Below are positions 23,922-44,205 of a stretch of DNA of 47,414 nt, one piece after another. The translations under genes and the position numbers were made by a program. Numbering within the stretch: position 1 is the first letter of the stretch; every line of letters starts with the position of its first letter. Where the stretch lies: NCBI GenBank assembly GCA_018402765.1, contig JAGYIE010000007.1, positions 1 through 47,414 of the forward strand, read 5' to 3'. Source of the stretch: Vicingaceae bacterium (lineage in GTDB: Bacteria > Bacteroidota > Bacteroidia > Flavobacteriales_E > Vicingaceae). Under the pieces are notes generated by a model, which worked only from the letters and a program-made list of their open reading frames with translations, did not search any database and was not told the origin of the DNA.

Positions 23922-24149
23922 ATGAAGGAAACGGATTTTTTAGAATTTACAGCAAAAGAACTATTAGTTGATGCTAATGAAATTGGTTTAAATACTGTTT
24001 TTAGAGATTTACCCAGATGGAGTTCATTAAATGCATTGATTTATGTTTCTAGAATTAAAGAGGAATATAATGTGATGATCTCTTCTCAACAATTGGCAGC
24101 ATCCAAATCCTTAAGTGATCTATACATGCTAATTCAAGCAGTGCATTAA
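23922..24149 (+). CDS. Acyl carrier protein
   Basis: This 75-residue, four-helix carrier protein reads KELLVDANEIGLNTVFRDLPRW and then SSLNALIYVSRIKEEYNV. The phosphopantetheine attachment site is S35 in WSSL, where most carriers have DSL, so the Asp is replaced by Ser. Its stop shares a base with the next start (TAATG), coupling it to a KAS III gene. It is an accessory carrier dedicated to the glycan cluster, not the fatty-acid synthase ACP. It probably supplies an acyl group for a sugar N- or O-acylation. The start at 23922 is the only one downstream of the promoter element. Confidence 0.8.
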   Translation: MKETDFLEFTAKELLVDANEIGLNTVFRDLPRWSSLNALIYVSRIKEEYNVMISSQQLAASKSLSDLYMLIQAVH

Positions 24150-27492: not shown

Positions 27493-28626
27493 ATGAGACC
27501 AATTAAATTTAATTCAAGTTGTAAAAGTAATTCTTATACTTCACATTTTGAATTACTAAATTCAGACTACACGTTATTCAGGGACAAACATTTCTCTGCT
27601 AAATGTTTGAATTGGTTGGAAAATACTTATTCATCCTCCCATTTATTACTTACCCATTCTGCAACTGGAGGATTAGAAATTATAGCTCAGTTGATGAATT
27701 TGAAAGATGGAGATGAAGTGATTATGCCCTCGTTCACTTTTGTTTCGTCAGCGAATGCTTTTGTAGGATTAGGAGCTACTCCTGTATTTGTTGATATTAA
27801 TAAACAAACCTTAAATTTAGATCTTGATTTTGTAGAGGAAGCAATTACACCAAGAACAAAAGCAATAGTGGCAATGCATTATATTGGACATGCTTGTGAG
27901 TTGGGCCGCTTAAGAGCAATTTGTGATAACCATAATTTGTTTTTAATAGAAGATGCGGCTACGGGTTTTGGAGGGCACTATCGAGGCAAACCTTTAGGCG
28001 CCATTGGAGATTTTGGAGTGATTAGTTTTGATATCACCAAACATATTTCAGCAGTTCAAGGCGGCCTTTTGTTAATTAATAATGCTGATTTTGCAAAAAG
28101 AGCCAATCAAATTTATCACAATGGTACCAATAGAGTGGAGTTTGAGAATGGAGAAACTTCTTATTATGAATGGGTAGGAGCAGGGTCAAAGTATCAAATG
28201 AATGAGTTAAATGCAGCTTTTTTATACGAACAACTATTATATTCAGAAGATACACTGCAGCATCGGAAGCGTCTTTCTCAATTGTATCACGGACAGCTAA
28301 AAGATTTGGCGACTAAGGGAAGATTTAGTTTAATAGCAGATGATTTGGTAGCTTCAAATGTTCATGCTTATTATCTGATTACTGCTAATCAAAATGAGCG
28401 AGATGCATTACAATCGTTTTTAAAGGTCAATAATGTTGAAGCATTTTTCCATTACATTCCGCTACATTTATCAACCTACGGTAAAGCTATTGGCCAATAT
28501 ATTGGTGGGAATAATACAGAACAAGTTTCTGAATCACTTTTGCGTTTGCCATTCCACAGTAATATTACAGATGAAGATGTAGAAGCTATCGTTTTACTAA
28601 TAGAAAAGTTTTACGATGGAAGATAG
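27493..28626 (+). CDS. wecE: WecE-like sugar 4-aminotransferase (DegT/DnrJ/EryC1)
   Basis: This 377-residue PLP enzyme closely follows WecE/RffA landmarks: GDEVIMPSFTFVSSANAFV, KTKAIV-like AMHYIGHACE, EDAATGF and the PLP lysine K183 in SFDITKHISAVQGG. GTNRVEF and FHYIPLHLS near the C-terminus also match. WecE converts dTDP-4-keto-6-deoxyglucose to dTDP-4-amino-4,6-dideoxygalactose. The genes for the precursor (rmlA, rmlB) are not in the window. With the GNAT, ACP and KAS III genes it could give an N-acylated 4-amino-deoxy sugar. Its end overlaps the Wzm gene by 11 bp. Its upstream DNA lies inside the reversed gene. Confidence 0.9.
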   Translation: MRPIKFNSSCKSNSYTSHFELLNSDYTLFRDKHFSAKCLNWLENTYSSSHLLLTHSATGGLEIIAQLMNLKDGDEVIMPSFTFVSSANAFVGLGATPVFVDINKQTLNLDLDFVEEAITPRTKAIVAMHYIGHACELGRLRAICDNHNLFLIEDAATGFGGHYRGKPLGAIGDFGVISFDITKHISAVQGGLLLINNADFAKRANQIYHNGTNRVEFENGETSYYEWVGAGSKYQMNELNAAFLYEQLLYSEDTLQHRKRLSQLYHGQLKDLATKGRFSLIADDLVASNVHAYYLITANQNERDALQSFLKVNNVEAFFHYIPLHLSTYGKAIGQYIGGNNTEQVSESLLRLPFHSNITDEDVEAIVLLIEKFYDGR

Positions 28627-29440
28627 AAAGGTGGTAGTCTACTCGTCCAAGAACGATTCTTTGAAGGTTTCATTAAGAAAGGTTTGGGAATATAGCGCGT
28701 TAGTTTGGGTATTTGCAAAAAGGGATATCAAGGTTAAATATGCTCAAACTATTTTTGGTTTTGGGTGGAGTATTTTTAAACCATTGTTGGGTTTACTAAT
28801 TTATGTGTTCTTTTTTGGTTTGGTTTTAAATTGGAATACTGGCTCAATTCCTTTTCCCTTGTATGTGTTGACCGGTTTAATTGGTTGGAATTTATTTACA
28901 TACATTGTAAGTAATGGAGTCTCTAGTGTTCAAGAATCTAATGATTTAATAAAAAAGATTTATTTCCCCAAGAGTATATTGCCACTTTCAAAAACCGTAG
29001 TAGGTCTGATTGAAGCATCAATTAGTTTTCTATTATTAATTCCTCTATTAATCTATTACGAGCAGCCTATTGTTGGAAAAATAGCTTTTTTCCCGATTGT
29101 ATTACTTTTTAATGTTGTCTGCGGTTTGTCATTAGTTTTTTTTATTTCGTCCTTAGCGATAGTAAAGCGGGATTTATTGCAAGTGATTCCTTTTTTGTTA
29201 AACATGGCAGTTTGGTTTACACCTGTTTTCTTTTCGATTGATATTTTACCTGAAGACTTTCAATTTCTTATGATATATAACCCGATTGCCAATATGATTG
29301 ACTTGTGGAGGTGGGTGTTTTTTGAGAATATAGCATTCCAATTGGTATGGGGGGTTAATTTTTTAATAATGAGCTTATTTTTAGTGGTTTCATTCTATTA
29401 CTATACCTTAAAGGAGAATAAAATTACCGACTTTGCATGA
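28616..29440 (+). CDS. wzm: ABC-2 permease of a polysaccharide exporter (Wzm)
   Basis: This 274-residue inner-membrane protein has six hydrophobic segments and the ABC2 signature region VFAKRDIKVKYAQTIFGFGWSIFKPLL. IKKIYFPKSILPLSK and YNPIANMIDLWRWVFF are the typical motifs of O-antigen and teichoic-acid permeases. It pairs with the ATPase gene that follows (ATGA overlap at 29437). It would move a lipid-linked glycan completed in the cytoplasm across the inner membrane, so the polymer is made by the ABC-dependent and not the Wzx/Wzy route. Confidence 0.93.
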   Translation: MEDRKVVVYSSKNDSLKVSLRKVWEYSALVWVFAKRDIKVKYAQTIFGFGWSIFKPLLGLLIYVFFFGLVLNWNTGSIPFPLYVLTGLIGWNLFTYIVSNGVSSVQESNDLIKKIYFPKSILPLSKTVVGLIEASISFLLLIPLLIYYEQPIVGKIAFFPIVLLFNVVCGLSLVFFISSLAIVKRDLLQVIPFLLNMAVWFTPVFFSIDILPEDFQFLMIYNPIANMIDLWRWVFFENIAFQLVWGVNFLIMSLFLVVSFYYYTLKENKITDFA

Positions 29441-30540
29441 AGAGTAATATAGCCATAGAAGTAATTAATTTAGTTAAAACCTATTCACTTAGATCACAGT
29501 CTAGTGATGGTAAAGGAGAATTTAAAGCATTAGATGGAGTATCATTTAAAGTTGAGAAGGGACAAAGTGTTGCTATAATTGGTTCAAACGGAAGTGGTAA
29601 GAGTACCTTGTTGAAGATATTAGCGGGAGTAACTAAACCTACCTCCGGCAGTGTTGCTATAAGTGGAAAAGTTGCTAGCATATTAGATGTAGGAGCAGGA
29701 TTTCATCCTGAGTTATCAGGGAGAGAAAATATATTGGTAAATGGGCAATTGTTAGGATTTTCGAAGAAGGAAATAACACCAAAGATCAAGGATATAATTG
29801 ATTTTAGTGGTATAGGTCATTTTATACATGAACCGGTTAAAAATTATTCAAATGGAATGTTTTTAAGGTTGGCTTTTAGTATCGTTGTTCATCTTGATTT
29901 TGATGTTTACTTATTTGATGAAGTACTTGGGGTTGGGGATGCTGAGTTTCGGGAAAAGGTAAAAAAAGTATTTACAGATTTTGGTAAAACAATTATTTTA
30001 GTATCTCATGACTTTAATGAAGTGAATTCATACTGCCGCACCTCTATTCAACTTTCAAAAGGTCGCCTTCTTAGCGTAAAATCATTAACAGGGGAATTTA
30101 GCTCAGATAAGTTCCCTAATATAAATTCACCATCAGAATATTTAATTTTCGATGAGGGTAAGATTTATTTTGAATTAGAAGAAGAAGAAAATACGATGGT
30201 TATAAATTTAAAAACCGTATTTAATTTTAAGACAATATCTGAATTTAACTGGTTTATTTATTTAAGGGACATAAATGGAGCAGTGATAACATCAATTATA
30301 GAATATAGTAAGCTTTCCAATTCCTATTATATTGATGATTATACATTAATAAATAGAATAGTTATTAATAAAAGAATTCTGCGTTCTTCTACTTATTCAT
30401 TATCTTTTTATCTTTGTAAAGAAGGAATCCACTATAAAAAGCAACTCACAGATAGGTATTATTTTACTTTAAAAAACCCTAACCAATCAATTGAATATGA
30501 ATGTTCAAAATGTGGGCCTATTTATTATCCAAATATGTAA
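29437..30540 (+). CDS. wzt: ABC ATPase with C-terminal glycan-recognition domain (Wzt)
   Basis: At 367 residues the nucleotide-binding domain shows Walker A GSNGSGKST (49-57), signature YSNGM (137-141), Walker B VYLFDE (157-162) and the switch H191. Residues about 215-367 form an extra beta-rich domain like Wzt_C, which in E. coli O8/O9a binds the modified non-reducing end of the polymer before export. The tail has ECSKCGP with two close cysteines. The adjacent dioxygenase and methyltransferase genes may make that terminal modification. Confidence 0.92.
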   Translation: MKSNIAIEVINLVKTYSLRSQSSDGKGEFKALDGVSFKVEKGQSVAIIGSNGSGKSTLLKILAGVTKPTSGSVAISGKVASILDVGAGFHPELSGRENILVNGQLLGFSKKEITPKIKDIIDFSGIGHFIHEPVKNYSNGMFLRLAFSIVVHLDFDVYLFDEVLGVGDAEFREKVKKVFTDFGKTIILVSHDFNEVNSYCRTSIQLSKGRLLSVKSLTGEFSSDKFPNINSPSEYLIFDEGKIYFELEEEENTMVINLKTVFNFKTISEFNWFIYLRDINGAVITSIIEYSKLSNSYYIDDYTLINRIVINKRILRSSTYSLSFYLCKEGIHYKKQLTDRYYFTLKNPNQSIEYECSKCGPIYYPNM

Positions 30541-30543
30541 TGT

Positions 30544-31560
30544 ATGTATAAAATTTTTAAAAATGAAAATAATCAAATTCAATTTGAAAATAATGGTTTT
30601 GTTCAGTTATCCCTCTTAGGAATTAATTCAATTAATTCTTTAAAAAATCTATATGATGAATACATAAGAGAAAATAAACATATAATTAATTCGAGGTATG
30701 GGATGCATATTAGTTTAAACGACAAAGATATATCATCAAAGGAGAAATTAATTAAATCAATTCAATCAATTCTGAAAAATGATTTAGACAATATTTTTGA
30801 AAATTACAAAGTTCATCTCGGCGGATTCTTAACTAAATTACCTGATTCAAAATCCTACACATATCCGCATCAAGATTGGACTTTTGTAGATAATAATGAT
30901 ATTAATGCCTTTTCTTCAACTATTTGGATTAGCTTAAGCAACCTCTCTATCTCTTCAGGAAGTTTGGGATTTATAAAGGGTTCCCACAAACTTTTTGATG
31001 AAGTAATCGGATCTCCATCTCCTGTTACATATACATCTGCTCAGAATTACAGTGATTTATTTTTAGATTATTTACATGTACCTGAAGTTAAAGAAGGAGA
31101 TGCATTAATTTTTAACAACAAAACTATTCATGGAGCTTTCCCTAATTTAGATAGTTGTCCTAGAGTTGCAATCGCGATTGGTATAACTCCTGAAAAATGT
31201 GATTTATATCATTACACATTGACCCAGAATAAGAAGAGATTTAGAAAATTAAAGGTTGATGAGCTTTTCTTTATGAAGTATATGAATGAGGAGCTTTACG
31301 AAAAGTATCAACAGAACTATGAGTTTAATGAATATGAACAAGCAGGGGAGGTTGATGTTCGCTTTACATCTATTGAAAAAAGTGAATTGGAGAATAAGAT
31401 TATAGTATTAGAAAATACGCGTAATTTTTATGAAACTAATCCAATTCAGAAAGAGCAGCAGGCTTATATAGAAAAGGCAGATAGCAGAACGTTTTTTCAA
31501 AAATATTCTTTCAAAAATATTTTTAGAGAAGTAATATACAGATTTAGAATTTTAAAATAG
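30544..31560 (+). CDS. PhyH-family Fe(II)/2-oxoglutarate dioxygenase (first of three)
   Basis: This 338-residue jelly-roll oxygenase has the iron triad H109-x-D111 (YPHQDW) and H196 (TIHGAFP), with the 2-oxoglutarate-binding R207 (PRVAIAIG). GFIKGSHKL and a WI[SP]L strand are typical of the phytanoyl-CoA dioxygenase superfamily. It carries a roughly 90-residue C-terminal extension with a coiled region. It would hydroxylate or otherwise oxidise a sugar or acyl group in the glycan. It lies between the Wzt gene (3 bp) and a methyltransferase gene (4 bp). This gene is visibly more AT-rich than asnB further down. Confidence 0.85.
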   Translation: MYKIFKNENNQIQFENNGFVQLSLLGINSINSLKNLYDEYIRENKHIINSRYGMHISLNDKDISSKEKLIKSIQSILKNDLDNIFENYKVHLGGFLTKLPDSKSYTYPHQDWTFVDNNDINAFSSTIWISLSNLSISSGSLGFIKGSHKLFDEVIGSPSPVTYTSAQNYSDLFLDYLHVPEVKEGDALIFNNKTIHGAFPNLDSCPRVAIAIGITPEKCDLYHYTLTQNKKRFRKLKVDELFFMKYMNEELYEKYQQNYEFNEYEQAGEVDVRFTSIEKSELENKIIVLENTRNFYETNPIQKEQQAYIEKADSRTFFQKYSFKNIFREVIYRFRILK

Positions 31561-31564
31561 AACA

Positions 31565-32383
31565 ATGTCTTTAGATAAAAGTGTACTGCAAGTCAAAGAA
31601 TTTTACAATACGTATAATGATAAATTTTTAAGTGTTTATGGTAACGTAATTCAGGCGTTTAGAACAAATAATGTTGAGGATTATCTTGAATATACTTTCA
31701 ATTCAATTGGATTTAAGCCTGAAGAACTAGTTTTAGACGCAGGATGCGGTGTTTGCGGACCTGCAGCATATTTCGCCAATAAAATAGATAATCTACGAAT
31801 CGAAGCTTGTACTATTTCTGAAGCACAATTTCATGCAGGTAAAACAATCTTGTCTGATAATGATTTAAACGGTCAAGTCAATCTATTTTTACACGATTAT
31901 AATCAACTCGAAGATAAGTATCCATCTGAAAGTTTCAATAGAATCTATTTCTTAGAATCATTTGGACATTCTAGAAATCAGAATGCTCTTATTAATAGTT
32001 GTTGGAATTTGTTGAAAGAAGGTGGTGTTCTATATATCAAAGATTTATTTAGAAGAGAGTTTGATGATGAGTGGAAACAACTTAGGGCAGACGAAATTGT
32101 TGAATCTATTAATCGAGCATATTCTTATTGTGTTCCTGAGTTAAATAGCTTATTAACTGCTTTAAGAAAGTTAGGTTTTTTAATTGAGTTTATAAAGATG
32201 CCTGATATAGATAAAAATGATTTTGAACGCTTAAGTATTTCTAACGAATTTCAGGAACTATTTGGAGTTGATAAAATAAAAAGTTGGAAGAATTATATTT
32301 TTCCAATAGATTTTTTTGAGGTCAAAGTAGTTAAACCTGAGAAATTTGATACCAATAATCATTTATATTTTTTAAACAAGTAA
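31565..32383 (+). CDS. SAM-dependent class I methyltransferase
   Basis: This 272-residue protein has the SAM motif I VLDAGCGVCGPAAYF (56-70), an acidic strand-2 region, motif IV-like FNRIYFLESFGHS and post-motif LLKEGGVLYIKDLF. It resembles small-molecule O- or C-methyltransferases of the UbiE/sterol type. Placed between two PhyH dioxygenase genes right after the exporter, it may methylate the chain end or a side group of the polysaccharide. The substrate is inferred from context only. Confidence 0.85.
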   Translation: MSLDKSVLQVKEFYNTYNDKFLSVYGNVIQAFRTNNVEDYLEYTFNSIGFKPEELVLDAGCGVCGPAAYFANKIDNLRIEACTISEAQFHAGKTILSDNDLNGQVNLFLHDYNQLEDKYPSESFNRIYFLESFGHSRNQNALINSCWNLLKEGGVLYIKDLFRREFDDEWKQLRADEIVESINRAYSYCVPELNSLLTALRKLGFLIEFIKMPDIDKNDFERLSISNEFQELFGVDKIKSWKNYIFPIDFFEVKVVKPEKFDTNNHLYFLNK

Positions 32384-32386
32384 TAC

Positions 32387-33307
32387 ATGTTTTTTTCAAA
32401 AAGGAAACAACTTTTAAAAAGTAAAAGTTTAGACAAAGAACTTGATTGTAATGGATTTGTAAAGTTTGGAAAAATTAGTTCTTCTATTCTTGAGGATCTA
32501 ACTGATTTATATCAAAAATTATTAATCCCTGATTCTTATGGTTTTGGGTTTAATGTAGGTTTAAATACCGATAATAAAGAGGTAAGGAGTGAGATGCAAT
32601 CCAACATAACAAAAATTATAGAGTCTGTGCTTTTGGAACATTTTATAAATAGAAAGGTTTTTACTGCAACTTTTATGAATAAAGTTTCGGGTCAAAAGTT
32701 TTTACTACCACCACATCAAGATTGGACATATACCGATGAGTCCTACGACGATTCCATTATGTGTTGGATACCACTTATTGATGTTACTGCTGAGAATGGG
32801 GCCTTATGTCTTATGCCCAAATCACATAAACTCTTTAATTATGATAGGGCATTCCCTTTGTCATATATGCCTTCGCCTGTTAATAGTTTAAACTACAAAC
32901 TACTCCCATATATGGAAGTGGTTGAAGCTAAAGCAGGTGAAATTATTGTAATTAATCATAAAACTGTGCATGCCTCCTTACCTAATTACACTGCAAATGA
33001 AAGATTAGCAGTTGGAGTCAGCATATCTCCAGTAGAAAATGAATTTATTGTAAAATGTTTAAATCCTCAAAATGGAGGTAAAACTTCTTTTACATATGAG
33101 GTAAATCAAAATTTCTTGGTCGATTATAGACATGTAGATTTAGCAAAATGGTTTAACCAAAAGATAATATATCCGTTTGACTATAAATTAATTAAAGAAG
33201 AGCGACTAAGGATTGTAAATGTTAAAATGCAGGACGTAGAAAAATTTGTCAATAAGAATGGAATTATTTTTAATTCGAAGTTAAAACAAGAAAACTTTAC
33301 TACCTAA
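32387..33307 (+). CDS. PhyH-family Fe(II)/2-oxoglutarate dioxygenase (second of three)
   Basis: This 306-residue protein has a complete triad: H110-x-D112 (PPHQDW), H195 (TVHASLPN), and R206 (ERLAVGVS). IPLIDVTAENGALCLMPKSH follows the fold order of the family. It is clearly related to the products of 30544-31560 and 40871-41725 but divergent outside the motifs, so the three are not recent duplicates. It starts 3 bp after the methyltransferase gene and ends 1 bp before the UbiA gene, in an operon arrangement. Substrate unknown. Confidence 0.85.
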   Translation: MFFSKRKQLLKSKSLDKELDCNGFVKFGKISSSILEDLTDLYQKLLIPDSYGFGFNVGLNTDNKEVRSEMQSNITKIIESVLLEHFINRKVFTATFMNKVSGQKFLLPPHQDWTYTDESYDDSIMCWIPLIDVTAENGALCLMPKSHKLFNYDRAFPLSYMPSPVNSLNYKLLPYMEVVEAKAGEIIVINHKTVHASLPNYTANERLAVGVSISPVENEFIVKCLNPQNGGKTSFTYEVNQNFLVDYRHVDLAKWFNQKIIYPFDYKLIKEERLRIVNVKMQDVEKFVNKNGIIFNSKLKQENFTT

Positions 33308-33308
33308 T

Positions 33309-34388
33309 ATGTTGAGAATAAAAGATTGGCTCTATAGTTTTATTCCTATAATTCTTGGAAATTTATATTTGTGGATTTACATTTTTGGTATTAAGCGAGA
33401 TATTGAAACATTTTATCTGCTTGTACTCTCTTTGATTACCTCTTTAGGATTTTCATCTTTAGGTTATTTACTTAATGAGTTTTCAGACATTGTTGATGAT
33501 CGACTTGCAGGTAAGTTAAATGTGCTTTCTGGAAAAAAACATTATCAGATTGCTGGTTTATTTTTTTTCAGCAGCTTATTAACTTTTTTGCCTTGGTTGT
33601 ATTTACCTAGTGATTATATTAGTTTTTTTCTAATCGTTTTACAATTGAGCTCTTTTATTTTGTATTCGATAAGTCCATTTAGATTTAAGAAGATAGTTAT
33701 TATTTCTAATCTACTGGATACTTTTTATGCCTATTTAATACCCCAAATATTATCAGCTTACACTTTCTTTTTATTTTCAGACCTTTTGAACTTCCCTAAG
33801 TATCTGCTAATTTATTTCATTGTATTTTTCATAGTTGGCTTTCGAAATATACTGATTCATCAGATAGACGATATTTTTTATGATAAAAATATAAATAATT
33901 TGACACTGCCTAGGAAACTAGGTATTGGTAGAACAGATTTATTATTAAGAGGGTTAATTCTTTCAGAATTTTTTGCGATTAGCCTTTTTTTGATATTTAT
34001 GGCTATTAATATCAATTTATACTTAATTATTTCTTTAATTTTTGTGTTTTACAGAGCTTATTATCTTTTTGTTAAGAGAAAGGAAATGTTGAGTAACTTC
34101 ATCGTCTTCTTTGAAATTAGAGAAGGTTTTAACTCTATCTATCAGATTTGGTTACCTCTTATATTCATTACATTTTTAGCTTTCAATTCTATTTATTGGA
34201 TTTTGATTTATCCAATTCATCTATTATTATTTGCTGATAGAATAATGATATCAAAAATAGTTAGTGGGATTAAAACTGTTGTTAGTGTAACTATTAACTA
34301 TTCTATTTACTATCTCTTTAGAATTTTTAGGGTTAACCTTAAGAATGAAGAAAAAGACGCTGTAACTTATATAAAATCAAGATGGTAA
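33309..34388 (+). CDS. UbiA-superfamily prenyltransferase
   Basis: This 359-residue, roughly nine-span membrane protein has the first Asp-rich motif N56-E57-x2-D60-x3-D64 (NEFSDIVDDR), YSISPFRFKK corresponding to the YSxPPxxxK loop, and the second motif D188-x3-D192 (DDIFYDKN). UbiA enzymes use Mg-bound prenyl diphosphates. In a glycan locus the closest precedent is the decaprenyl-phosphate phosphoribosyl transferase of mycobacteria, which makes a lipid-linked pentose. The acceptor here is unknown. The gene overlaps the next one by 7 bp. Such a gene is unusual in an O-antigen-like cluster. Confidence 0.8.
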   Translation: MLRIKDWLYSFIPIILGNLYLWIYIFGIKRDIETFYLLVLSLITSLGFSSLGYLLNEFSDIVDDRLAGKLNVLSGKKHYQIAGLFFFSSLLTFLPWLYLPSDYISFFLIVLQLSSFILYSISPFRFKKIVIISNLLDTFYAYLIPQILSAYTFFLFSDLLNFPKYLLIYFIVFFIVGFRNILIHQIDDIFYDKNINNLTLPRKLGIGRTDLLLRGLILSEFFAISLFLIFMAININLYLIISLIFVFYRAYYLFVKRKEMLSNFIVFFEIREGFNSIYQIWLPLIFITFLAFNSIYWILIYPIHLLLFADRIMISKIVSGIKTVVSVTINYSIYYLFRIFRVNLKNEEKDAVTYIKSRW

Positions 34389-35365
34389 GTAGATTTCTTT
34401 GTTTTATATTAGGAGTAGGGCTAAGTTGTGCGTGTTGCTCAAAAGGATCAAATTCGGATAAAAAGGTCGTTGATGCTCATATTGTATTAAAAGAATTACA
34501 GTATATTAAAAGCATCCAATATACCAATTGTTTAGATTCTATACATTTTATTGAATGTGAGAAATTCTTAATCGACAGCATTAAATTATCTTATTCCTAT
34601 GCTATAAATAGAATCAATCAAGAGTTAAAAATTATTGATAATATTAATACTAATCGCAACACAAAGCTATATTTAAAGTCATTATTATTTGCTGATTTTG
34701 TTTACTCAGCTTTTAGCTTTCAGTTTTTTGGGGATCAGCTTGGAAAAGCTCAAGATTTTGAAAGTCAACAATTATGGAATACTTTAAACGTTAAACAACA
34801 ATATGAATTGGGCGTGTCTAATACACTTTCTCTTGACTGTGGATTAAGAACCAAATTTTTTATGAAACTCGTAAAAAACTACCTTAAGATACCCATTCGT
34901 GATACTTCAATTGAAAGCGTACACACTTATCCAATCGTTACAATCGGGAATCATGAGTATATTGTTGATCCATCTGATCCAATTATTTTTTTTAATGATT
35001 CAAATTCCCGAGTGTTAAATTATAAGGAATTAAAATCTACGAATAAAAAGATAAATTTTAGGAGGTTTACTAGGGTTTTCGGTACTACTAACTTGCTCCT
35101 CTCTAGGAACTTATTAAAGGAATTTTTACCACTTGGTATTATGTTTAAAAACCAGTTGATTAATTATTTAGATGTGATTGGACCCGAAATTAGTGGAAAA
35201 ATATCCAACTGTTTTCAACCAAAATTTGAAAAACAAATCTATGTTTACAAATTAAATAATCCAAATAATGCGCTAGCTATTAGTTCAAATGCTAGATATT
35301 TAGGATACACCCTAACCCAGCAAAGTTTTAAAAATAATTATTTTGGAGTGGTTTGTGATCTTTAA
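34382..35365 (+). CDS. Lipoprotein with transglutaminase-like papain fold
   Basis: This 327-residue protein has a lipoprotein-type signal (FILGVGLSCACC, with Cys16 or Cys18 as the modified residue). The central part matches the transglutaminase-like arrangement: C153 at a helix start (SLDCGLRTKFFMKLV), H181 (VHTYPIVTIGN) and D196 (EYIVDPSDP). I recognise the pattern, not a named family. It may act outside the inner membrane as an acyl or amide transferase or hydrolase, for instance attaching or trimming an amino group on the glycan or its protein carrier. It overlaps the UbiA gene by 7 bp and precedes asnB by 4 bp. Confidence 0.6.
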   Translation: MVSRFLCFILGVGLSCACCSKGSNSDKKVVDAHIVLKELQYIKSIQYTNCLDSIHFIECEKFLIDSIKLSYSYAINRINQELKIIDNINTNRNTKLYLKSLLFADFVYSAFSFQFFGDQLGKAQDFESQQLWNTLNVKQQYELGVSNTLSLDCGLRTKFFMKLVKNYLKIPIRDTSIESVHTYPIVTIGNHEYIVDPSDPIIFFNDSNSRVLNYKELKSTNKKINFRRFTRVFGTTNLLLSRNLLKEFLPLGIMFKNQLINYLDVIGPEISGKISNCFQPKFEKQIYVYKLNNPNNALAISSNARYLGYTLTQQSFKNNYFGVVCDL

Positions 35366-35369
35366 TTAA

Positions 35370-37148
35370 ATGTGTGGAATAATAGGTCATATAAAGCTAA
35401 ATAAAGAAAAAATTGATGAGCAATTATTTCATCAAATGTTGAGTACTTTACAGCATAGAGGCCCCGATGGAGAAGGTGTGTTCATTTCACCCGACCGGAA
35501 AATTGCGCTAGGCCATAAACGCCTGTCATTTATTGATTTAAGTGATAATGGGAAACAACCATTTATCAACTCGAATAATAAAATCGTATTAACGTTTAAT
35601 GGTGAAATCTATAATTACTTAGAATTAAAAAAAGAGCTCTCAACAGCTTATAGTTTCAATACGGAAACAGATACAGAAGTTGTTTTAGCTGCATATCAAG
35701 TATGGGGTATTGATTTCGTAAATAGACTAAAAGGAATGTTTGCTATTGCAATCGTTGACTTCAACTTGAACCAATTATTCCTAATTCGAGATCGATTTGG
35801 TATAAAGCCGCTTTATTACGGATTTTATGATAACCAGCTCGTGTTTGCTTCTGAATTAAAGGCAATCATCCAAGCGAATGTTTTTCCTAAAGAGTTGGAC
35901 AAGAGTGCTGTGGCTGATTTCTTCGTGTATAGATATGTCCCATCACCTAAAACAATTTGGAAAGGAATTAATAAGCTTGCTCCTGCTAATTATTTAAAAG
36001 TTCATTTAAAAACACTTGATTCAGAATTAACTGAGTATTGGTCGTTAAAGGCCTCTAATCACCAACCGTCTTTAGAAAAGTTATCAGCTGACACCAATCA
36101 ATTATTACTAGATTCTGTTAAACAGCACATTAGATCCGATGTGCCTATTGGCTCATTTTTAAGTGGAGGTTATGACAGCAGTGCTCTAGTACTTTGGATG
36201 ACTGAGCTTGGCTTAAAACCTAACACTTTTTCTATAGGTTTTGATAATTGGGTAAAGAGTGAGGATCATTACGCAAAAATTGTAGCTGATCACTTGGGAG
36301 TGCCTAATGATGCTACTATCGCCTCGAATTCGAGCATTGACTTGGTAGATAAAATGGCTTGGGTATACGATGAGCCAATCGCTGATATATCAATTGTACC
36401 AACTTATCTTGTTAGTGAATTGGCAAGAAAAAAGGTAAAAGCGGTATTGAGTGGGGAAGGAGCTGATGAATTATTTGGAGGATATACTTGGCAGCATGAT
36501 TTTTTTCAGCAAACGTACAACACTAGTTTGCTTCAAAAATTAAAAAATATTCTACGTCCGGCTGATCCGGTTCACTATTATGCGCTGTCAATGGCAATGG
36601 GTTGGTTTGATTATGCGGAGCTAAAACAATTGCTTCATGAAGAATATCATTCTTCGATACCTGAAGATGTTCATTGGTTTTACAGAAAGCATTTTCGTTC
36701 AGATTTAACACCAATTAAAGCAATACAGCACATGGATATTAAATGCTTTATGGGAGAATTGGTATTGACAAAAATTGACAGAGCTAGCATGGCCAACTCT
36801 TTGGAGGTGAGGGTTCCGTTTTTAGATCATCAGCTTTTTGAACAAATCTTCTCTATCGACGAAAAGATGTATTTATCTAAAAATCAAACTAAACAAGTGC
36901 TATTTGAAAATATAAAGATCAAATTACCCAAATCTATTTTGAGCCGTAAAAAACAAGGTTTCGTAGGTCCAGATACCTATTACATGAATATGGAATACTA
37001 CCGAAAAGAACTAGCGAATGCCAATTTAGTCAAATTTAATGTGATTAATCAGTCTTATTTAGAATCTTTACTTAAGCAAAACTATAATTGGAAGTTGTGG
37101 AAGATATTAATATTGGAAAAGTGGTTCTCTAATTGGATAGCTGCTTAA
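35370..37148 (+). CDS. asnB: Glutamine-hydrolysing asparagine synthase
   Basis: This 592-residue amidotransferase begins MCGIIGH, so Cys2 is the glutaminase nucleophile. The N-terminal domain has NGEIYNY (78-84) and DRFGIKPLYY. The synthetase domain has the PP-loop SGGYDSS (265-271), the GEGADELFGGY loop and a DRASMANSLEVRVPFLD motif. Members in polysaccharide loci often amidate uronic acids instead of making asparagine. It follows the transglutaminase-like gene by 4 bp and precedes a uronate-epimerase-like gene by 54 bp, which supports that role. Its codon composition looks less AT-biased than the genes before it. Confidence 0.93.
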   Translation: MCGIIGHIKLNKEKIDEQLFHQMLSTLQHRGPDGEGVFISPDRKIALGHKRLSFIDLSDNGKQPFINSNNKIVLTFNGEIYNYLELKKELSTAYSFNTETDTEVVLAAYQVWGIDFVNRLKGMFAIAIVDFNLNQLFLIRDRFGIKPLYYGFYDNQLVFASELKAIIQANVFPKELDKSAVADFFVYRYVPSPKTIWKGINKLAPANYLKVHLKTLDSELTEYWSLKASNHQPSLEKLSADTNQLLLDSVKQHIRSDVPIGSFLSGGYDSSALVLWMTELGLKPNTFSIGFDNWVKSEDHYAKIVADHLGVPNDATIASNSSIDLVDKMAWVYDEPIADISIVPTYLVSELARKKVKAVLSGEGADELFGGYTWQHDFFQQTYNTSLLQKLKNILRPADPVHYYALSMAMGWFDYAELKQLLHEEYHSSIPEDVHWFYRKHFRSDLTPIKAIQHMDIKCFMGELVLTKIDRASMANSLEVRVPFLDHQLFEQIFSIDEKMYLSKNQTKQVLFENIKIKLPKSILSRKKQGFVGPDTYYMNMEYYRKELANANLVKFNVINQSYLESLLKQNYNWKLWKILILEKWFSNWIAA

Positions 37149-37202: not shown

Positions 37203-38138
37203 ATGCCTAAAATACTGATTACTGGTGGTGCCGGATTTATTGGTTATCATCTAAATCAAAAGCTTAGACCGAATCATCAAGTAGTATTAATTGATGAGTT
37301 ATCAAATAATCGCTTTGCCTCTACAAAAAGGGCCGAGGCATTAGAAAATTTGAAAATGGCGTCAATTCTGCATCCTTTTATATCAAATCTGGAAGAAAAG
37401 CCTGAATTTGTAATTCATTTAGCTGCAGAAACCGGTATTGGAGGATCACTTATTTCTCCTGAATTGTATTTCAAAACAAATGTTGAAGGTACATATAATG
37501 TGCTTGAAGAATGTCGTAAAAATGGTGTTAAGTATCTTATTTATGCGAGTAGTTCTTCTGTATATTCTAAAGGACAAAGCATAACAGATGAAGGTAGTGA
37601 CACATCTCAGCAACTATCATTTTATGGGACAACAAAAAAAATGACAGAAGTGATGATTGAAAATTACTGTCATCAATTTAGTATCACAGCGATTGGATTA
37701 AGGTTTTTTACGGTATATGGCTCTTGGACTCGGCCTGATATGGCAGCTTATAAATTTATGTCTGCTATCGAGCAGAATAAAAAAATTAAGTTATACAACA
37801 ATGGAAATGTATATCGCGATTTCACCCATGTTTCAGACGTAGTTAATGCCATAAGTCTTCTTGTTGAGAAAATTAAAGAATTACCTGAAGGAGCTCATGA
37901 AATCTTTAATATTGGACTAGGCAAACCGGTTTCTATTAAGTATTATGCTGAAAAAATTGCGGAGAATCTGAACAAGAAGCTAAACTATGATTCACCTGCC
38001 CTTCCAATTAATGAACTAGAGAGCACACATAGTGATAGCAGTAAATTAGAGCAATTTATTAACTATCATCCTTCTAAAAGCATTGAGGACGGAGTGAAAG
38101 AAATGGTAGATTGGTTTAATCTTGTTCGCTATGACTAA
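37203..38138 (+). CDS. NAD-dependent sugar epimerase, UDP-glucuronate 4-epimerase-like
   Basis: This 311-residue extended SDR has GGAGFIG at the N-terminus, SSSSVYSKG, the catalytic Y-x3-K in FYGTTKKMTE, and RFFTVYGSWTRPDMAAYKF, which closely follows the VYGPxGRPDMA stretch of uronate 4-epimerases. It would interconvert UDP-GlcA and UDP-GalA. Paired with asnB it suggests an amidated galacturonic acid in the polymer. The next gene starts 8 bp before its stop. A UDP-glucose 4-epimerase activity is the main alternative. Confidence 0.85.
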   Translation: MPKILITGGAGFIGYHLNQKLRPNHQVVLIDELSNNRFASTKRAEALENLKMASILHPFISNLEEKPEFVIHLAAETGIGGSLISPELYFKTNVEGTYNVLEECRKNGVKYLIYASSSSVYSKGQSITDEGSDTSQQLSFYGTTKKMTEVMIENYCHQFSITAIGLRFFTVYGSWTRPDMAAYKFMSAIEQNKKIKLYNNGNVYRDFTHVSDVVNAISLLVEKIKELPEGAHEIFNIGLGKPVSIKYYAEKIAENLNKKLNYDSPALPINELESTHSDSSKLEQFINYHPSKSIEDGVKEMVDWFNLVRYD

Positions 38139-39312
38139 AGAAGTATATGTATTTGTAGTTTGTGGCAGTCAGGAACATATTGATACCTTGCACTTTTCGT
38201 TAGCATATTTAAAACAATACTCTAGTAAGTCTATTGTAATTATTACCGATTCGTCGCGTAATGAAGTAATCATAAATCACACTGATATAGTTGATGTTAA
38301 AACGCCATCAAATTTTAACCACCATCAAGCAAGTATTTATCTAAAAACAGGGATTCATAAGTTTTTGCCAAAAGATCACTTGTATTGCTACCTAGATACG
38401 GATGTAGTTGCCTTAGATGAGACTTGTGATCAAATTTTTGCTCAATATAATTCACCCATAACTTTTGCGCCTGATCACTGCAAAGTGAGAAGTTTTAGTC
38501 CTTATGCTGTTAATTGTGGATGCCAGGATAGATGCGCTGAGGATAGAGATAATTTTTTAAATAGTTTAAGAAAGTATGATAAAAATGGTGAATTAACTTC
38601 ATCATTTGCAGTCGTACAAAGGCGAAAAATAGAAGAGAAGTATCATCAAATTCAGCAATCATTTTTAAAGAAGGTAATCTATGCAATTAAATATTATATA
38701 AGTTTTCCTAGATTTTGGCTAAGCAGTAATATATACTTCGATAAAAAAAGACGCTATTGGGCGACTAAAGATGGAGTAGTTGTGAAGTATGAGTTAGATG
38801 TTAGAAGTATTGCTAAAGAAGCCAATTTAAAGTACACACTTTGGTTTAATAAATGGAAGAATAAAGATGGTCTGAACATTTTTGATATAAATTGTGACCA
38901 CCTTATTGAGAAAATTCAGAACACGTTTGATCTAAAAATATCTGAAAACAATTGGCAACATTGGAATGGAGGAGTATTTTTATTTGATAACGAAAGTCAT
39001 TCTTTTCTTGAGTCTTGGCACAACAAAACAATGCATATTTTTTCCTTAAAGGATTGGAAAACCAGAGATCAGGGTACATTGATAGCCACAGTTTGGGAGT
39101 TTAAATTGCAAAATCATCCAACTTTATCTAAAGAATGGAATTTTATAGCTGATTTTCATAACAATAACTTAGTTATCAGTAAGGAAACAAATACGCTTTC
39201 AGATGATTTGTTTCAAACGACGTATCAACCCAAGTTTATCCATGTTTTTCATGAATGGGGAAATGAGCAATGGGAAGTTTGGAATTGGTTAAAATTAAAA
39301 CAACAACTATGA
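38131..39312 (+). CDS. GT-A glycosyltransferase with DxD motif
   Basis: At 393 residues from the ATG at 38131, it opens EVYVFVVCGSQEHIDTL, has the donor-binding DxD in YCYLDTDVVALD, WNGGVFLFDNESH and a late KFIHVFHEWG. These are features of GT8-like or capsular GT-A enzymes. A Cys-rich stretch NCGCQDRCAEDRD near residue 130 is unusual for such enzymes and may bind metal. Its start lies in the end of the epimerase gene (8-bp overlap) and its stop overlaps the next ATG. Confidence 0.75.
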   Translation: MTKEVYVFVVCGSQEHIDTLHFSLAYLKQYSSKSIVIITDSSRNEVIINHTDIVDVKTPSNFNHHQASIYLKTGIHKFLPKDHLYCYLDTDVVALDETCDQIFAQYNSPITFAPDHCKVRSFSPYAVNCGCQDRCAEDRDNFLNSLRKYDKNGELTSSFAVVQRRKIEEKYHQIQQSFLKKVIYAIKYYISFPRFWLSSNIYFDKKRRYWATKDGVVVKYELDVRSIAKEANLKYTLWFNKWKNKDGLNIFDINCDHLIEKIQNTFDLKISENNWQHWNGGVFLFDNESHSFLESWHNKTMHIFSLKDWKTRDQGTLIATVWEFKLQNHPTLSKEWNFIADFHNNNLVISKETNTLSDDLFQTTYQPKFIHVFHEWGNEQWEVWNWLKLKQQL

Positions 39313-39989
39313 GTAATTCGAAACATAACCTTATTTTTTTCACCGTTGTTATGTTTACTATTTATCTATGGTCATTTCTGCATACAGAAAGTTGCATAAG
39401 GATATTAGCACCTGCCGAAAACAGAGAACTTGGGTTAATAGAACTGTCCCAAACTTTTTTTTTGATTGCTATTGGCAAGATTAGCTATTCTCAATTTAAC
39501 ATTGCTCAAATATTTAAAAGAGCTCAAGATTTTTTATGGTTTTTGTTTTTTTGCTTAATGGTTTTCGTCCTACTTGAAGAAATTGACTATGGTTTGCACT
39601 ATTATGATTATTTACTTGGAAATGATGCGTATTCAACTAATATAGTTAATTTCAGAAATATTCACAATCAAGGAAACAATAATCGTGTTTTTAAAGGTCT
39701 ATTTATTAGCATACTTACTCTGCTGTTTGTTGTGTTGCCTTTATTGAAATTGCGAATTGGGCGACTAGTATATTCAATGCATTATGCGGTGTTTTATTTA
39801 TTACATACAGTAAGTACGTATGTTATTTCTCTTGTTCTTCTAGATCAATTAACCATTCTTCAACAAGAAATATTTCATAAAAGTCAAATTTACAATGAGT
39901 TACGTGAATTGAGTTGGTATTTTATTCTTTTATCTTTTATCTACGAGTTTAAGAATGAACTAATAATACCTTTAAAGATTACAAAATAA
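39309..39989 (+). CDS. Polytopic membrane protein with EExxYG and NxHN motifs
   Basis: At 226 residues from the ATG at 39309 (ATGA overlap with the previous stop), it has about six membrane segments. Between them lie two polar motifs: LLEEIDYGLHYYDYLLG and NFRNIHNQGNNN. I recall uncharacterised membrane proteins with EEISWGQR and NLHN at the same places, so this may be a divergent member; that is from memory. Paired acidic and His/Asn motifs at membrane borders suggest a catalytic membrane enzyme, but no function is known. The longer frame from 39270 is rejected because it reaches into the previous gene. Confidence 0.7.
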   Translation: MSNSKHNLIFFTVVMFTIYLWSFLHTESCIRILAPAENRELGLIELSQTFFLIAIGKISYSQFNIAQIFKRAQDFLWFLFFCLMVFVLLEEIDYGLHYYDYLLGNDAYSTNIVNFRNIHNQGNNNRVFKGLFISILTLLFVVLPLLKLRIGRLVYSMHYAVFYLLHTVSTYVISLVLLDQLTILQQEIFHKSQIYNELRELSWYFILLSFIYEFKNELIIPLKITK

Positions 39990-39999
39990 ATAATTTATA

Positions 40000-40860
40000 A
40001 TGAGCATTTATTGTACGATATCAACTTTCTCTCATTTGTTTAAAGCCTTTGCTCTTGCAGACAGTCTTGCAGTATTTCAAAAAGACTTAAAAGTGCTTTT
40101 AATTGATGGTGATGTAGATAAGTTAAGTAAATCTGCTCCCAATAATATAACTTTCTTCTCCTTAACTGATTTAATTTCAGAAAGGGCTAATGCTGTAAAG
40201 GCAAAATACAAAGAGGACTATTTAAGATGGGCTTTAAAACCAGTTTTTTTACTTCATTTACTATCAGATTATCCAAGTGTAATTTATGTAGATAACGACA
40301 TCTATTTTTTTAATGATTCTAAGTTTTTAGAAGACTATTTATTAGAATATAATATATTGCTGACTCCTCATTTTTATCCGTCAGAACCAAATAGGAATCA
40401 GACGTGGTTAGAGGCAAATTTTAGAATAGGACTTTTTAATGCGGGGTTCATAGGAGTAAATACTGGAGCTAAAGAAGCTTTAGAATGGTGGGCTGATTGT
40501 TGTTTATATGAGTTACGAAAGGCTTATTGGAGAGGTTTGTTTGATGATCAAAAGTATCTAGACTTATTTCCTATACTATTTGAAAAAGTAAAGATTATAA
40601 AAGATAGAGGGTGTAATTTGGCTGGCTGGAATTCTGATATAATTTTGAAAATGGACAAGATAATATTTATTCATTTTAATGAATACACAATTAATAAGTT
40701 TAAGAATACAGGCAATCCATATTTTGCTTTTTTTTATCGATACAAAATGATGATGCGCTCTCATGGCTTTAATAAGGAAAGCAAAACCTTAAAACTTAAT
40801 AAATTTAAATTACAAAATTTTATTTATTTTATACGATGGAAGATAAGTAGATTACATTAA
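40000..40860 (+). CDS. Putative nucleotide-diphospho-sugar transferase
   Basis: This 286-residue protein begins IYCTISTFSHLFKAFALADSL, a Rossmann-like GT-A opening. It has the metal-binding DND at 98-100 (VIYVDNDIYFF), FNAGFIGVN, DDQKYLDLFP and ending helices rich in aromatics. It resembles GT8-like glycosyltransferases of surface glycan loci without a precise family. It is markedly AT-rich. It lies 10 bp after the membrane protein gene and 10 bp before the third dioxygenase gene. Confidence 0.75.
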   Translation: MSIYCTISTFSHLFKAFALADSLAVFQKDLKVLLIDGDVDKLSKSAPNNITFFSLTDLISERANAVKAKYKEDYLRWALKPVFLLHLLSDYPSVIYVDNDIYFFNDSKFLEDYLLEYNILLTPHFYPSEPNRNQTWLEANFRIGLFNAGFIGVNTGAKEALEWWADCCLYELRKAYWRGLFDDQKYLDLFPILFEKVKIIKDRGCNLAGWNSDIILKMDKIIFIHFNEYTINKFKNTGNPYFAFFYRYKMMMRSHGFNKESKTLKLNKFKLQNFIYFIRWKISRLH

Positions 40861-40870
40861 TAATTATACT

Positions 40871-41725
40871 ATGAGATTAAGGTCAGATAGATTACAGAGA
40901 ATTTACGAAGAAGACGGTGCGGTCATTATTCATAATTTTATAACTAAAGACAAATTAAAAGTTATACAGGATTATTTTGAAGAGCTAAAAATAAACGATT
41001 TAGATAAAATTCATTCAAATATGTTAGATCCTATACCTGAATTTAATCAACGATTTAGAAATAAGTGCGTTGAATTATTTGACGATCCAATTAAAAGACA
41101 TTTTAAAGATTACCGAGTTGCGGGAGGTGCCTTTCTTTTAAAAGGATGTGGAAAAAATAGTTTATCTTCATTACATCAAGATTGGAATATCGTTGATGAA
41201 TCAGTATATGAATCAGCTACAATTTTTTGTCCGGTAGAAGATGTAACCTTAAAAAATGGTTGTTTACAAATTATAAAGGGAAGCCATAAATGGTTTAATA
41301 ATGTTCGTTCAATCACAATGCCTTCGGTTTTTCTAAATTTCAACCAAGTTGATAAAGGAATTAAAGCCTTGCCTTTAAAAGCCGGAGATGTAGTTGTATT
41401 CAATCATCGTGTATTTCACGGCTCAAAAGCTAATTTATCAAAAAAAATAAGAGTTGCCGTTGCCGTTGGTATTACTTCAAAAAATGCTAAATTTATTCAT
41501 TATCATAGAAAAAATGAAGAAGTTAATATAATTGAGGCTAATGATGATTTTTCTTATCATGGAATAGCAAAACTTTTTAAAGGAGAAGAATTTGATTATA
41601 AGATAATTGAAAAGGTTAAATATAATCAACTAGAAGTAACTGATATTGAAAAGTTCAATGTTGCTTATCGAGAACACTATCCATTAAACATTTTTAATCG
41701 AGTATTGAACAAATTTAATAGATGA
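40871..41725 (+). CDS. PhyH-family Fe(II)/2-oxoglutarate dioxygenase (third of three)
   Basis: This 284-residue protein has the triad H102-x-D104 (LHQDW) and H183 (VFHGSKAN), with the 2-oxoglutarate ligand R194 (IRVAVAVG). FCPVEDVTLKNGCLQIIKGSHKW follows the family order. It lacks the long C-terminal tail of the first copy. All three copies share an HQDW motif, so they form one subfamily. Its TGA stop overlaps the next ATG (41722-41725), coupling it to the GT-C gene and suggesting that oxidation and sugar transfer belong to the same pathway. Confidence 0.85.
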   Translation: MRLRSDRLQRIYEEDGAVIIHNFITKDKLKVIQDYFEELKINDLDKIHSNMLDPIPEFNQRFRNKCVELFDDPIKRHFKDYRVAGGAFLLKGCGKNSLSSLHQDWNIVDESVYESATIFCPVEDVTLKNGCLQIIKGSHKWFNNVRSITMPSVFLNFNQVDKGIKALPLKAGDVVVFNHRVFHGSKANLSKKIRVAVAVGITSKNAKFIHYHRKNEEVNIIEANDDFSYHGIAKLFKGEEFDYKIIEKVKYNQLEVTDIEKFNVAYREHYPLNIFNRVLNKFNR

Positions 41726-44205
41726 AGTCAAAATTAGCTACTCCTTTATTATTCTTATTTTCAATACTGATATTTAGTAATGTCGTTTTTAATGGATACA
41801 ATTATGATGATGAGTTGGTTACCAGAAATAATAAACTTACTAAAAATGAAAGTTCTGCTACTCTTAAGGATATTTTTTCATCATCTTACCATGAGCAATA
41901 TGGATATAGCTATGGTTATAGGCCAATAACTACATTATCTTTTTTTTTAGAGCATCGTATTTTTAAGGAGTCTCCGACAGTCAGCCACTTGATTAATTTG
42001 TTGCTCTATGCAATTTCAATATTGCTACTTTATTGGTTAATATCCAAAATGTTTCCTTCAATTAACTCTTATATTTTATTCTTTATTTGTGTTTTTTTTA
42101 CAATTCATTCAACTCATTCTGAAGTTGTTGCAAGTATAAAGAATAGAGACGAAATCTTGTCATTTTTATTTTTACTGCTAAGCTTACTGTGTTCTATTTA
42201 TTGGATCGCTGAAAAAAAGATGAGTTCACTTTTACTAATTCTTTTATTTGTTAGCTTATCAATGTTATCGAAAAAAAGTGGATTGACTATCTTACTTATA
42301 TGGCCACTGTGGATTAATTTTAGGTATTATCTCAGTCTTAAAAATTTTATCATTTTAGCATTTTGCTTTCTGATACCACTTGTTTTTTTTGCTTTTAATT
42401 TCAACTTTGTTAAAGGAGTATTGCTGTTTTTAGCCGCTGGAGGTATTTATACTCTTTCTTGTTATGTTAAATCTAGTGGGTTTTTTGAGAAAAAATTTAA
42501 CCCATATAAATCCTTCCCTTTTTTACTAGGTATCTTATTTTTACTTGTTGGTATTTTTTTTTCTGAACTGACAATTGTATTTATTTCAGGGATTCTATTT
42601 CTCTATTATACTAAAAGATATGTTAATTTTTCCCTTCTCATTTTATCTTTACTATTTGTAATTTCTTACGGTATTTTCAGAAAAGTAGTTTTAATTGAAA
42701 TTCCTATTTTCTTTATTTCGGCTATATTTTTCTCAATACTTAACAGACATCGATTAGATTGGAGGCCGATTGTTTCTATATTGGTTATCGTTATGTATTT
42801 CGCGATACTTAAAGGAAGCTTGAGTTACTTTTTTATTTTTTTAATCCCTTTAGTAGTTTTTTATACCTCTTTTTATTGGAAATATCTACCTCTAGCACTA
42901 TCGATAATATCCTTCTTTGCTGGATTTATTTACTTTAATATTACATTTTTCCATTTTGGTTTATTGTTTTTTTCTTTAGTAATTTCCTTTTATAATAGCA
43001 GATTTAAATTATTCAAATTTTATGCCCTTACCTTTTGGATTGTATTTGGAAGTCTGTACATCATAGTGCCTGCTTATCAAGCCAATGGAAGCCTATTCAA
43101 AACTTTAGAACTAAAGGAAGAAATGGCTGAACAGTTTGTAGAAAAGAGGACTACTAATCTTCAAGAAGGCAGAAAGCTCGAATACATGGAGAATACGCTT
43201 ACAGCGCCTCATACCCTTGAGCAAAGAATAGCAACAGGAGCTATTGTTTTAGGCGAGTATTTTCGATTAATGATTTTTCCGAAAGAACTTTCTTTTTATT
43301 ATGGGTATTCAAGAATTCAAACAACAGATTTTACTGACTATAGCGTTTGGTTGAGTCTATTGATTCATTTAAGTATTCTCTTTTTAGTTGTCTACACTTA
43401 TAATAAGCATCTGTTGGTTTCATTTGGATTATTATGGTATTTCGCAGCAATTTTACTATTTAGCAATTGGCCTGTTTTGGTGGCTGGAATGGTAGGGGAG
43501 CGCTTGGCTTTCATTGCATCAGTCGGCTTTTGCATTGCAATAGGTGGGGTATTGAATTGGATTAAACCTAATTTTAATTTTAAGAAGCCTAAAGCTATAG
43601 AGATAGTTGCTTTAAGTGTACTCGTTTTATTATCTGTAAGAACAATTGCAAGAAATCGTTTATGGGAGTCACCTGAAAAATTAATGAGTAATGATATTGC
43701 TCATTTACAAAATTCAGCACAAGCCAATTATATGTTGGCGATGGCTATAGTAAAAGATGTCGTAAAAAATCCGCTTACACCTCAAGAGACTAACCCGCGA
43801 TTAAACAAGGCAATAAAGTATTTTAGGAAAGCCATTGAGGTGTATCCTGGTTTTTATAATTATCATTACGATTTAGGCCGAACATTTGTATTTTTGGAAA
43901 ATTATAGAGAAGCAAAAAATGCTTTTGAAGTAGCGTATAAATTAGAACCAAATGCATTAATCAGTCTTAATGAATTAGTAAAAACTAGTTTTGATTTAAG
44001 TGAATATGCTGATGTAATTAAATATGGAAAACTCTACCTCGAAAAGAATAAAAATGATTATATCATTTATGAACTTGTAGCTTATAGTGCCTATCTTGTA
44101 AAAGATTATCAGCTTGCAAAATCCTTAATTGTAGAGGGTTTAGGGTTTTATCCAAATAATCAAAATTTAAAAGGGCTATTTATTGATGTAAAAAAATCAA
44201 TCTAA
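41722..44205 (+). CDS. TMTC-like GT-C glycosyltransferase with C-terminal TPRs
   Basis: This 827-residue protein has about 15 or more membrane segments in residues 1-640. The first outer loop has the GT-C acidic motif D29-D30-E31 (YNYDDE), then YRPITTLSFFLEH. HSTHSEVVASIKNRDEIL corresponds to the HxxE/R-E motif of TMTC and PMT-type enzymes. Residues about 655-827 are TPR repeats (AIKYFRKAIEVYPGFYNYHYDLGRTFVFLENYREAKNAF pattern). GT-C enzymes transfer a sugar from a polyprenyl-phosphate donor outside the inner membrane, to glycan or protein. The GtrB-type enzyme at 25168 and perhaps the UbiA protein could supply the donor. Confidence 0.8.
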   Translation: MKSKLATPLLFLFSILIFSNVVFNGYNYDDELVTRNNKLTKNESSATLKDIFSSSYHEQYGYSYGYRPITTLSFFLEHRIFKESPTVSHLINLLLYAISILLLYWLISKMFPSINSYILFFICVFFTIHSTHSEVVASIKNRDEILSFLFLLLSLLCSIYWIAEKKMSSLLLILLFVSLSMLSKKSGLTILLIWPLWINFRYYLSLKNFIILAFCFLIPLVFFAFNFNFVKGVLLFLAAGGIYTLSCYVKSSGFFEKKFNPYKSFPFLLGILFLLVGIFFSELTIVFISGILFLYYTKRYVNFSLLILSLLFVISYGIFRKVVLIEIPIFFISAIFFSILNRHRLDWRPIVSILVIVMYFAILKGSLSYFFIFLIPLVVFYTSFYWKYLPLALSIISFFAGFIYFNITFFHFGLLFFSLVISFYNSRFKLFKFYALTFWIVFGSLYIIVPAYQANGSLFKTLELKEEMAEQFVEKRTTNLQEGRKLEYMENTLTAPHTLEQRIATGAIVLGEYFRLMIFPKELSFYYGYSRIQTTDFTDYSVWLSLLIHLSILFLVVYTYNKHLLVSFGLLWYFAAILLFSNWPVLVAGMVGERLAFIASVGFCIAIGGVLNWIKPNFNFKKPKAIEIVALSVLVLLSVRTIARNRLWESPEKLMSNDIAHLQNSAQANYMLAMAIVKDVVKNPLTPQETNPRLNKAIKYFRKAIEVYPGFYNYHYDLGRTFVFLENYREAKNAFEVAYKLEPNALISLNELVKTSFDLSEYADVIKYGKLYLEKNKNDYIIYELVAYSAYLVKDYQLAKSLIVEGLGFYPNNQNLKGLFIDVKKSI

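Follow-up and report, generated by a model that had tools for sequence, protein, structure and literature searches.

A new family of predicted lipoproteins of the transglutaminase-like superfamily, encoded between a UbiA-type prenyltransferase and AsnB in a Vicingaceae glycan locus

The window, by which we mean the whole stretch of 47,414 nucleotides analysed here, contains a lipoprotein gene that lies between genes for a UbiA-type prenyltransferase and for the amidotransferase AsnB. The genes of the region are:

28616-30540, forward strand: ABC-2 exporter membrane subunit (28616-29440) and ATPase (29437-30540)
30544-33307, forward strand: PhyH oxygenase, SAM methyltransferase and PhyH oxygenase, upstream of UbiA
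33309-34388, forward strand: UbiA-type prenyltransferase, with N56, D60, D64, D188 and D192 invariant in eight aligned sequences
34382-35365, forward strand: lipoprotein of the transglutaminase superfamily, 327 amino acids with an ATG start, from reading of the open reading frame
35370-37148, forward strand: AsnB, a glutamine-dependent amidotransferase, directly 3' of the lipoprotein gene
37203-44205, forward strand: epimerase, 396-aa protein, membrane protein, 286-aa protein, PhyH oxygenase and TPR-bearing multi-span protein

The end of the UbiA gene and the start of the lipoprotein gene share 7 bases, and a gap of 4 bases separates the lipoprotein stop from the AsnB start. Because of this overlap and this short gap, the three genes probably form one transcription unit. 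The sequence-only reading had placed the lipoprotein gene next to asnB in a glycan locus. The neighbour is correctly named, and the locus assignment is right in outline, as a family-2 glycosyltransferase, the ABC-2 exporter with its ATPase, a DegT aminotransferase and an epimerase are encoded here. The operon seems to make a surface sugar product and to export it. AsnB retains the N-terminal glutaminase Cys, as do all six aligned sequences, and is one of three Asn_synthase genes in the Vicingaceae genome. The window UbiA protein by itself falls below the Pfam cut-off, while the UbiA profile matches chlorophyll synthase (4e-7), DGGGP synthase (3e-6) and Rv3806c (0.75). The idea that UbiA is a polyprenyl-phosphoribose synthase, suggested by PMC11127046 and PMC10994848, is not favoured, because the Rv3806c match is far weaker than the other two.

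Further features of the locus and its counterparts are recorded here as observations. Three PhyH-type oxygenases are found in this one locus (30544-31560, 32387-33307 and 40871-41725), and a ketoacyl-ACP synthase III-like gene (24149-25156) lies close to where the glycan locus begins. The 827-aa multi-span protein with TPRs (41722-44205) is conserved across loci; L045 encodes a similar protein, which gives a weak TMTC O-mannosyltransferase match (0.002, below cut-off). The homologue of the 286-aa protein in L007 has a GT8 match, also below cut-off. One locus encodes a homologue of the lipase maturation factor LMF1 (L066:12390-13958). In L044:674-3298 a fusion protein combines a UbiA domain with another long membrane domain that has no significant Pfam match.

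In six loci a P450 and a toroid domain precede UbiA. They are fused in L007:6806-8968, L008:6746-8902, L011:6798-8948 and L065:10782-12914 and separate in L010:6428-8636 and L064:5137-7441, the P450 being confirmed by Pfam for L007 and L010 only. The toroid-domain profile matches drimenol synthase in the PDB, a terpene cyclase, at 6e-13. These domains are encoded next to UbiA within an ABC-exported glycan locus, and a terpenoid-decorated glycan or glycolipid is a possible product. No terpene-cyclase-like domain was found in the Vicingaceae genome. With P450 and toroid domains elsewhere and PhyH oxygenases and a methyltransferase at the Vicingaceae locus, the lipoprotein occurs with both versions of the locus. 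More distant UbiA homologues are present in 5 of 394 other genomes, from other Bacteroidota. Three of the five loci, L024, L025 and L026, were read; here too UbiA lies near a cyclase-like domain, and neither the lipoprotein nor AsnB was seen in these three stretches.

The lipoprotein gene is rare and patchy. It is present as a single copy in the Vicingaceae genome, and 13 homologues were collected from 12 other genomes, which gives 13 genomes with an intact gene overall. Among 60 related genomes, the source included, matches occur in six, namely the source and five others, one of them with a broken copy. Profile searches found the gene in 5 of 46 genomes of the same family (source and the broken copy in G026 counted), in 9 of 64 genomes of a second family (one of them rejected), in 8 of 395 genomes of a class-wide draw (two weak) and in 1 of 395 genomes of a phylum-wide draw, the source genome itself. 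Absence in the class- and phylum-wide draws is soft, since scoring there was limited to the five top candidates of each genome. A contig search with the window protein as sole query returned no relative. With the alignment as query, it returned five: one belongs to a Vicingaceae genome, the other four to metagenome bins labelled Flavobacteriales or Bacteroidetes.

Four candidates were left out of the final alignment, A7, or of the family altogether. G468 (E 6e-4) was rejected as antisense within a CoA-transferase-like reading frame, and the weak match G711 (E 6.9e-4, class-wide draw) was dropped. G624 (E 1.3e-6) resembles the family in the order of C, H and D, but its 5.7 kb contig showed neither UbiA nor AsnB and Pfam gave no match; it was left out of A7. 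The broken copy in G026 was excluded as well. In L062:783-3091, two diverged tandem copies of the lipoprotein gene stand ahead of AsnB.

The sequence-only reading had proposed a catalytic triad of C153, H181 and D196 and a lipoprotein signal at the N-terminus. Its residue numbering matches the 34382-35365 reading frame exactly. The relevant parts of the gene are:

34382-34429, forward strand: signal peptide with lipobox, from the alignment, with Cys in the C16 column
34577-35077, forward strand: core domain, residues 66-232, predicted by AlphaFold2 from six sequences (pLDDT 85.5, pTM 0.84)
34820-34822, forward strand: codon of N147, invariant in the alignment, 6 residues before C153
34838-34840, forward strand: codon of C153, the predicted nucleophile, which starts a helix in the model (alignment, model, profile)
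34922-34924, forward strand: codon of H181, the predicted base, which starts a strand in the model (alignment, model, profile)
34967-34969, forward strand: codon of D196, the predicted third triad residue, with both residues of the Asp-Pro pair invariant (alignment, model, profile)

A7 consists of 14 rows, the window protein and 13 homologues at 25-34% identity to it. Nine columns are invariant: G117, N147, C153, H181, P184, D196, P197, S241 and Y320. All three proposed triad residues are thus conserved in 14 of 14 sequences. The chance that three preselected residues all fall into 9 of 327 columns is 1.5e-5, a rough figure that treats positions as exchangeable. C153 and H181 are 28 residues apart, H181 and D196 are 15 apart. 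The invariant N147 may be an oxyanion-hole residue, as its offset of 6 residues from C153 is that of Gln19 from Cys25 in papain. According to PMC4866520, a conserved Cys-His-Asp/Glu triad in this order defines the transglutaminase-like (papain-fold) superfamily, and all 14 aligned sequences show it.

The N-terminus carries a signal peptide that, judged by eye, ends in a lipobox Cys at S15-C16, as expected of a bacterial lipoprotein. Counted by eye, 12 of the 14 sequences have a Cys in the C16 column. L065 and L068 have no Cys in this column, and their N-terminus is still hydrophobic. The lipidated residue of the window protein could be C16, C18 or C19; C16 has no Leu at -3, and the alignment points to C16. 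The proposed lipoprotein signal is thus supported at the level of sequence.

The family is not recognised by the sequence libraries searched. Neither the window protein, nor 6, nor all 14 members matched a transglutaminase model in Pfam, Transglut_core (PF01841) included, the 14 being scanned at E up to 10. NCBIfam with 6 members and the PDB sequences with profiles of 6 and 14 members gave nothing of use. Six weak Pfam families, each hit by one member and mutually disagreeing, were discarded (the best was DXP_synthase_N, E 0.0083), and an alpha-fetoprotein match in the PDB (E 0.62) was taken as chance. We built a local PF01841 profile from ten aligned matches of four Bacteroidota genomes; PF01841 matches were absent in four of the eight genomes searched, the Vicingaceae genome among them. 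With hhalign, the lipoprotein family scores 26.6 against this profile, and C, H, D and the Asp-Pro pair fall in register. This score was reached by none of 200 column shuffles, the best of which gave 19.4, and it compares with 12.9 for the reversed family and at most 15.1 for the four unrelated profiles, which come from three families (two from UbiA, one each from AsnB and the cyclase). The similarity to a known member family comes with an hhalign probability of only about 9-10% (8.7% in one run).

The model of the whole protein is of mediocre quality (pLDDT 62.9); its core is confident and the part beyond about residue 230 is poor. DSSP on the core model gives a helix that begins with C153 and a strand that begins with H181, while D196 lies two residues past the next strand. 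The predicted core thus places the Cys at a helix N-terminus, the His on the following sheet and the Asp at the next strand, and the same order is seen in the full-length model. The structure prediction that had been suggested as a check of the sequence-only reading yields a papain/transglutaminase-type core with the triad placed as in that fold; the outcome named there as refuting, a structure that lacks such a core, did not arise.

In the structural comparison, Foldseek gave no match at E < 0.001 for the full model or the core; its best match to the core is TglA (E 0.05, probability 0.80), and most of its top rows are proteins without relation to the superfamily, PNPase and kindlin among them. 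VIA-align 2 re-ranks Foldseek candidates only, and best Z values of 7-8 are common for models without a clear match. Among the matches listed, superfamily entries make up 47 of 50 for the core, many of them repeated vasohibin entries, and 46 of 50 for the full-length model. No listed match to the core has Z >= 8. The highest Z is 7.8 for peptide:N-glycanase (1x3w, rmsd 4.4, 138 residues aligned), second is LapG (4fgq, Z 7.4, rmsd 4.1, 119 aligned), and TglA (9crn, Z 7.1, rmsd 4.3, 119 aligned), 3isr (Z 7.0, rmsd 4.7, 120 aligned) and the arylamine N-acetyltransferase 4nv7 (Z 6.9, rmsd 3.8, 126 aligned) are also present. The superfamily rows listed for the core comprise peptide:N-glycanase, LapG, TglA, 3isr, arylamine N-acetyltransferases, vasohibins, the geldanamycin amide synthase ShGdmF, XPC, Ceg10 and menin, and of the three remaining rows fructose bisphosphatase accounts for two and an axonemal central-pair chain for one. 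These superfamily labels come in part from entry titles. PMC4866520 names 3ISR, 3KD4, 4FGQ and 2F4M as superfamily members. Since no Z reaches 8, no single score makes the case for the fold; it is made jointly by how well the rows agree, by where the triad lies and by the profile test.

The presence of menin and XPC/Rad4 among the structural rows raises the question of a catalytically dead transglutaminase fold with a binding role, as in these two proteins. We consider this very unlikely, because the 14 sequences, diverged and variable at most other positions, all keep C, H, D and N147.

We conclude that the lipoproteins are a new, unnamed family of a known superfamily, found in an unusual operon. 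AsnB lies directly 3' of the lipoprotein gene in 12 of the 13 genomes with an intact gene; the exception is a 6.3 kb contig where a radical SAM gene comes next. AsnB in L062-L067, like several other neighbours, was identified by reading translations. In those 12 genomes UbiA is the next gene upstream in nine, further upstream in two and off the contig in one. In G007 the same operon exists without the lipoprotein gene, only 42 bases separating UbiA and AsnB, and in G026 remnants of the gene remain between UbiA and AsnB, with its middle gone. As the UbiA-AsnB operon occurs without it, the lipoprotein gene is accessory to the operon, and AsnB does not need it. Such a pattern is more in keeping with tailoring or regulation than with an essential step, and it weakens the idea that the function is defined by partnership with AsnB. 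Of the sequence-only reading, the predicted papain/transglutaminase core, the triad placement and the lipoprotein signal are supported; the link to asnB is weaker than adjacency implied.

This bears on the reading of the lipoprotein as an amide-forming acyl transferase, in which AsnB would convert a carboxyl of the product to a carboxamide in the cytosol; after ABC export, the lipoprotein would take this carboxamide as its acyl donor and attach the product to an amine on a protein, a lipid or another chain. The position of AsnB directly after the gene in 12 of 13 genomes speaks for it, as do the retained glutaminase Cys of an AsnB that is not the sole Asn_synthase of its genome and the transferases among the structural rows (TglA, arylamine N-acetyltransferases, ShGdmF). 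With the operon of G007 lacking the gene, the broken copy in G026 and proteases and glycanases at tied Z among the same rows, we regard it as rather unlikely. A two-step variant, with the AsnB carboxamide placed on an exported prenyl- or terpenoid-bearing glycan that the lipoprotein would fix covalently to an envelope protein or lipid, appears improbable; no description of a bacterial glycan-to-amine ligation of this type was found in the literature searched. A further pairing of this kind is known from lasso peptide clusters, where PMC7533575 describes a transglutaminase-like LasB with an asparagine-synthetase-like LasC. The adjacency of the two genes in the Vicingaceae locus resembles such a peptidase and cyclase acting on a small peptide, but the lipoprotein carries an export signal and has about 300 residues, and none of the 14 sequences matches Transglut_core3. 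The locus is glycan-like, and its AsnB keeps the N-terminal glutaminase Cys that, to our knowledge, lasso cyclases lack. We consider a lasso-type pair so improbable as to be nearly negligible.

The reading that we prefer, and to which we give an even chance, is that of an exported, lipid-anchored transglutaminase-superfamily enzyme with an intact Cys153-His181-Asp196 triad, most likely a hydrolase like LapG and HvyA. Cys-His-Asp enzymes of this superfamily attack an amide, ester or thioester carbonyl and form an acyl-enzyme, which is resolved by water or an amine. From the above we infer catalytic activity, location, target and a preference for hydrolysis over transfer. The lipoprotein would be a thiol enzyme outside the cytoplasmic membrane that works through an acyl-enzyme intermediate and most likely hydrolyses an amide or ester bond, as the periplasmic LapG and HvyA do. 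If exported, it would come into play once the product has passed through the ABC transporter. Its target may be the product that the UbiA/AsnB/ABC-transporter locus exports, or else a protein involved in assembly at the surface, and its reaction would be an accessory step. Given the position of the gene between those for a prenyltransferase and for an amidotransferase, the target can be traced by removal of a single gene and mass spectrometry of the surface product. Among the open-licence PMC papers searched we found none on the lipoprotein family or on the UbiA-transglutaminase-AsnB operon.

The known relatives compare with the family as follows. TglA of Streptococcus pyogenes and 3isr, a putative cysteine protease of Cytophaga hutchinsonii, share 14-15% identity with the lipoprotein over about 120 residues and come from different organisms. 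Arylamine N-acetyltransferases and ShGdmF are of the same fold class (Z 4.9-6.9, 8-12% identity) and work in the cytosol with CoA thioesters or a bound polyketide. Peptide:N-glycanase, at 12% identity, is a eukaryotic cytosolic deglycosylase (PMC9102325). Transglut_core has its triad and Asp-Pro in register with the family, yet its Pfam model recognises none of the 14 members. LapG, which we count with HvyA among the bacterial transglutaminase-like cysteine proteinases (BTLCP), stands second in the structural list. The BTLCP Pfam family is not among the matches of the 14 members, and we therefore do not file the lipoprotein as a BTLCP member, only as possibly working alike. HvyA of Caulobacter, as described in PMC4241560, is a periplasmic transglutaminase-like protein that is encoded in a capsule-export locus and can govern surface polysaccharide. 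Its function is lost in C192S/A, H226Q/A and D241A, and D241N works (PMC4241560). On that account HvyA differs from the lipoprotein in being soluble in the periplasm, in a C-H spacing of 34 versus 28, and in phylum and operon. The two are alike in the Cys-His-Asp triad and in the H-D spacing of 15 (PMC4241560), and with its signal peptide and lipobox the lipoprotein may be exported as HvyA is. A family invisible to the domain libraries tried is added to the superfamily of HvyA, an exported bacterial member that controls surface polysaccharide.
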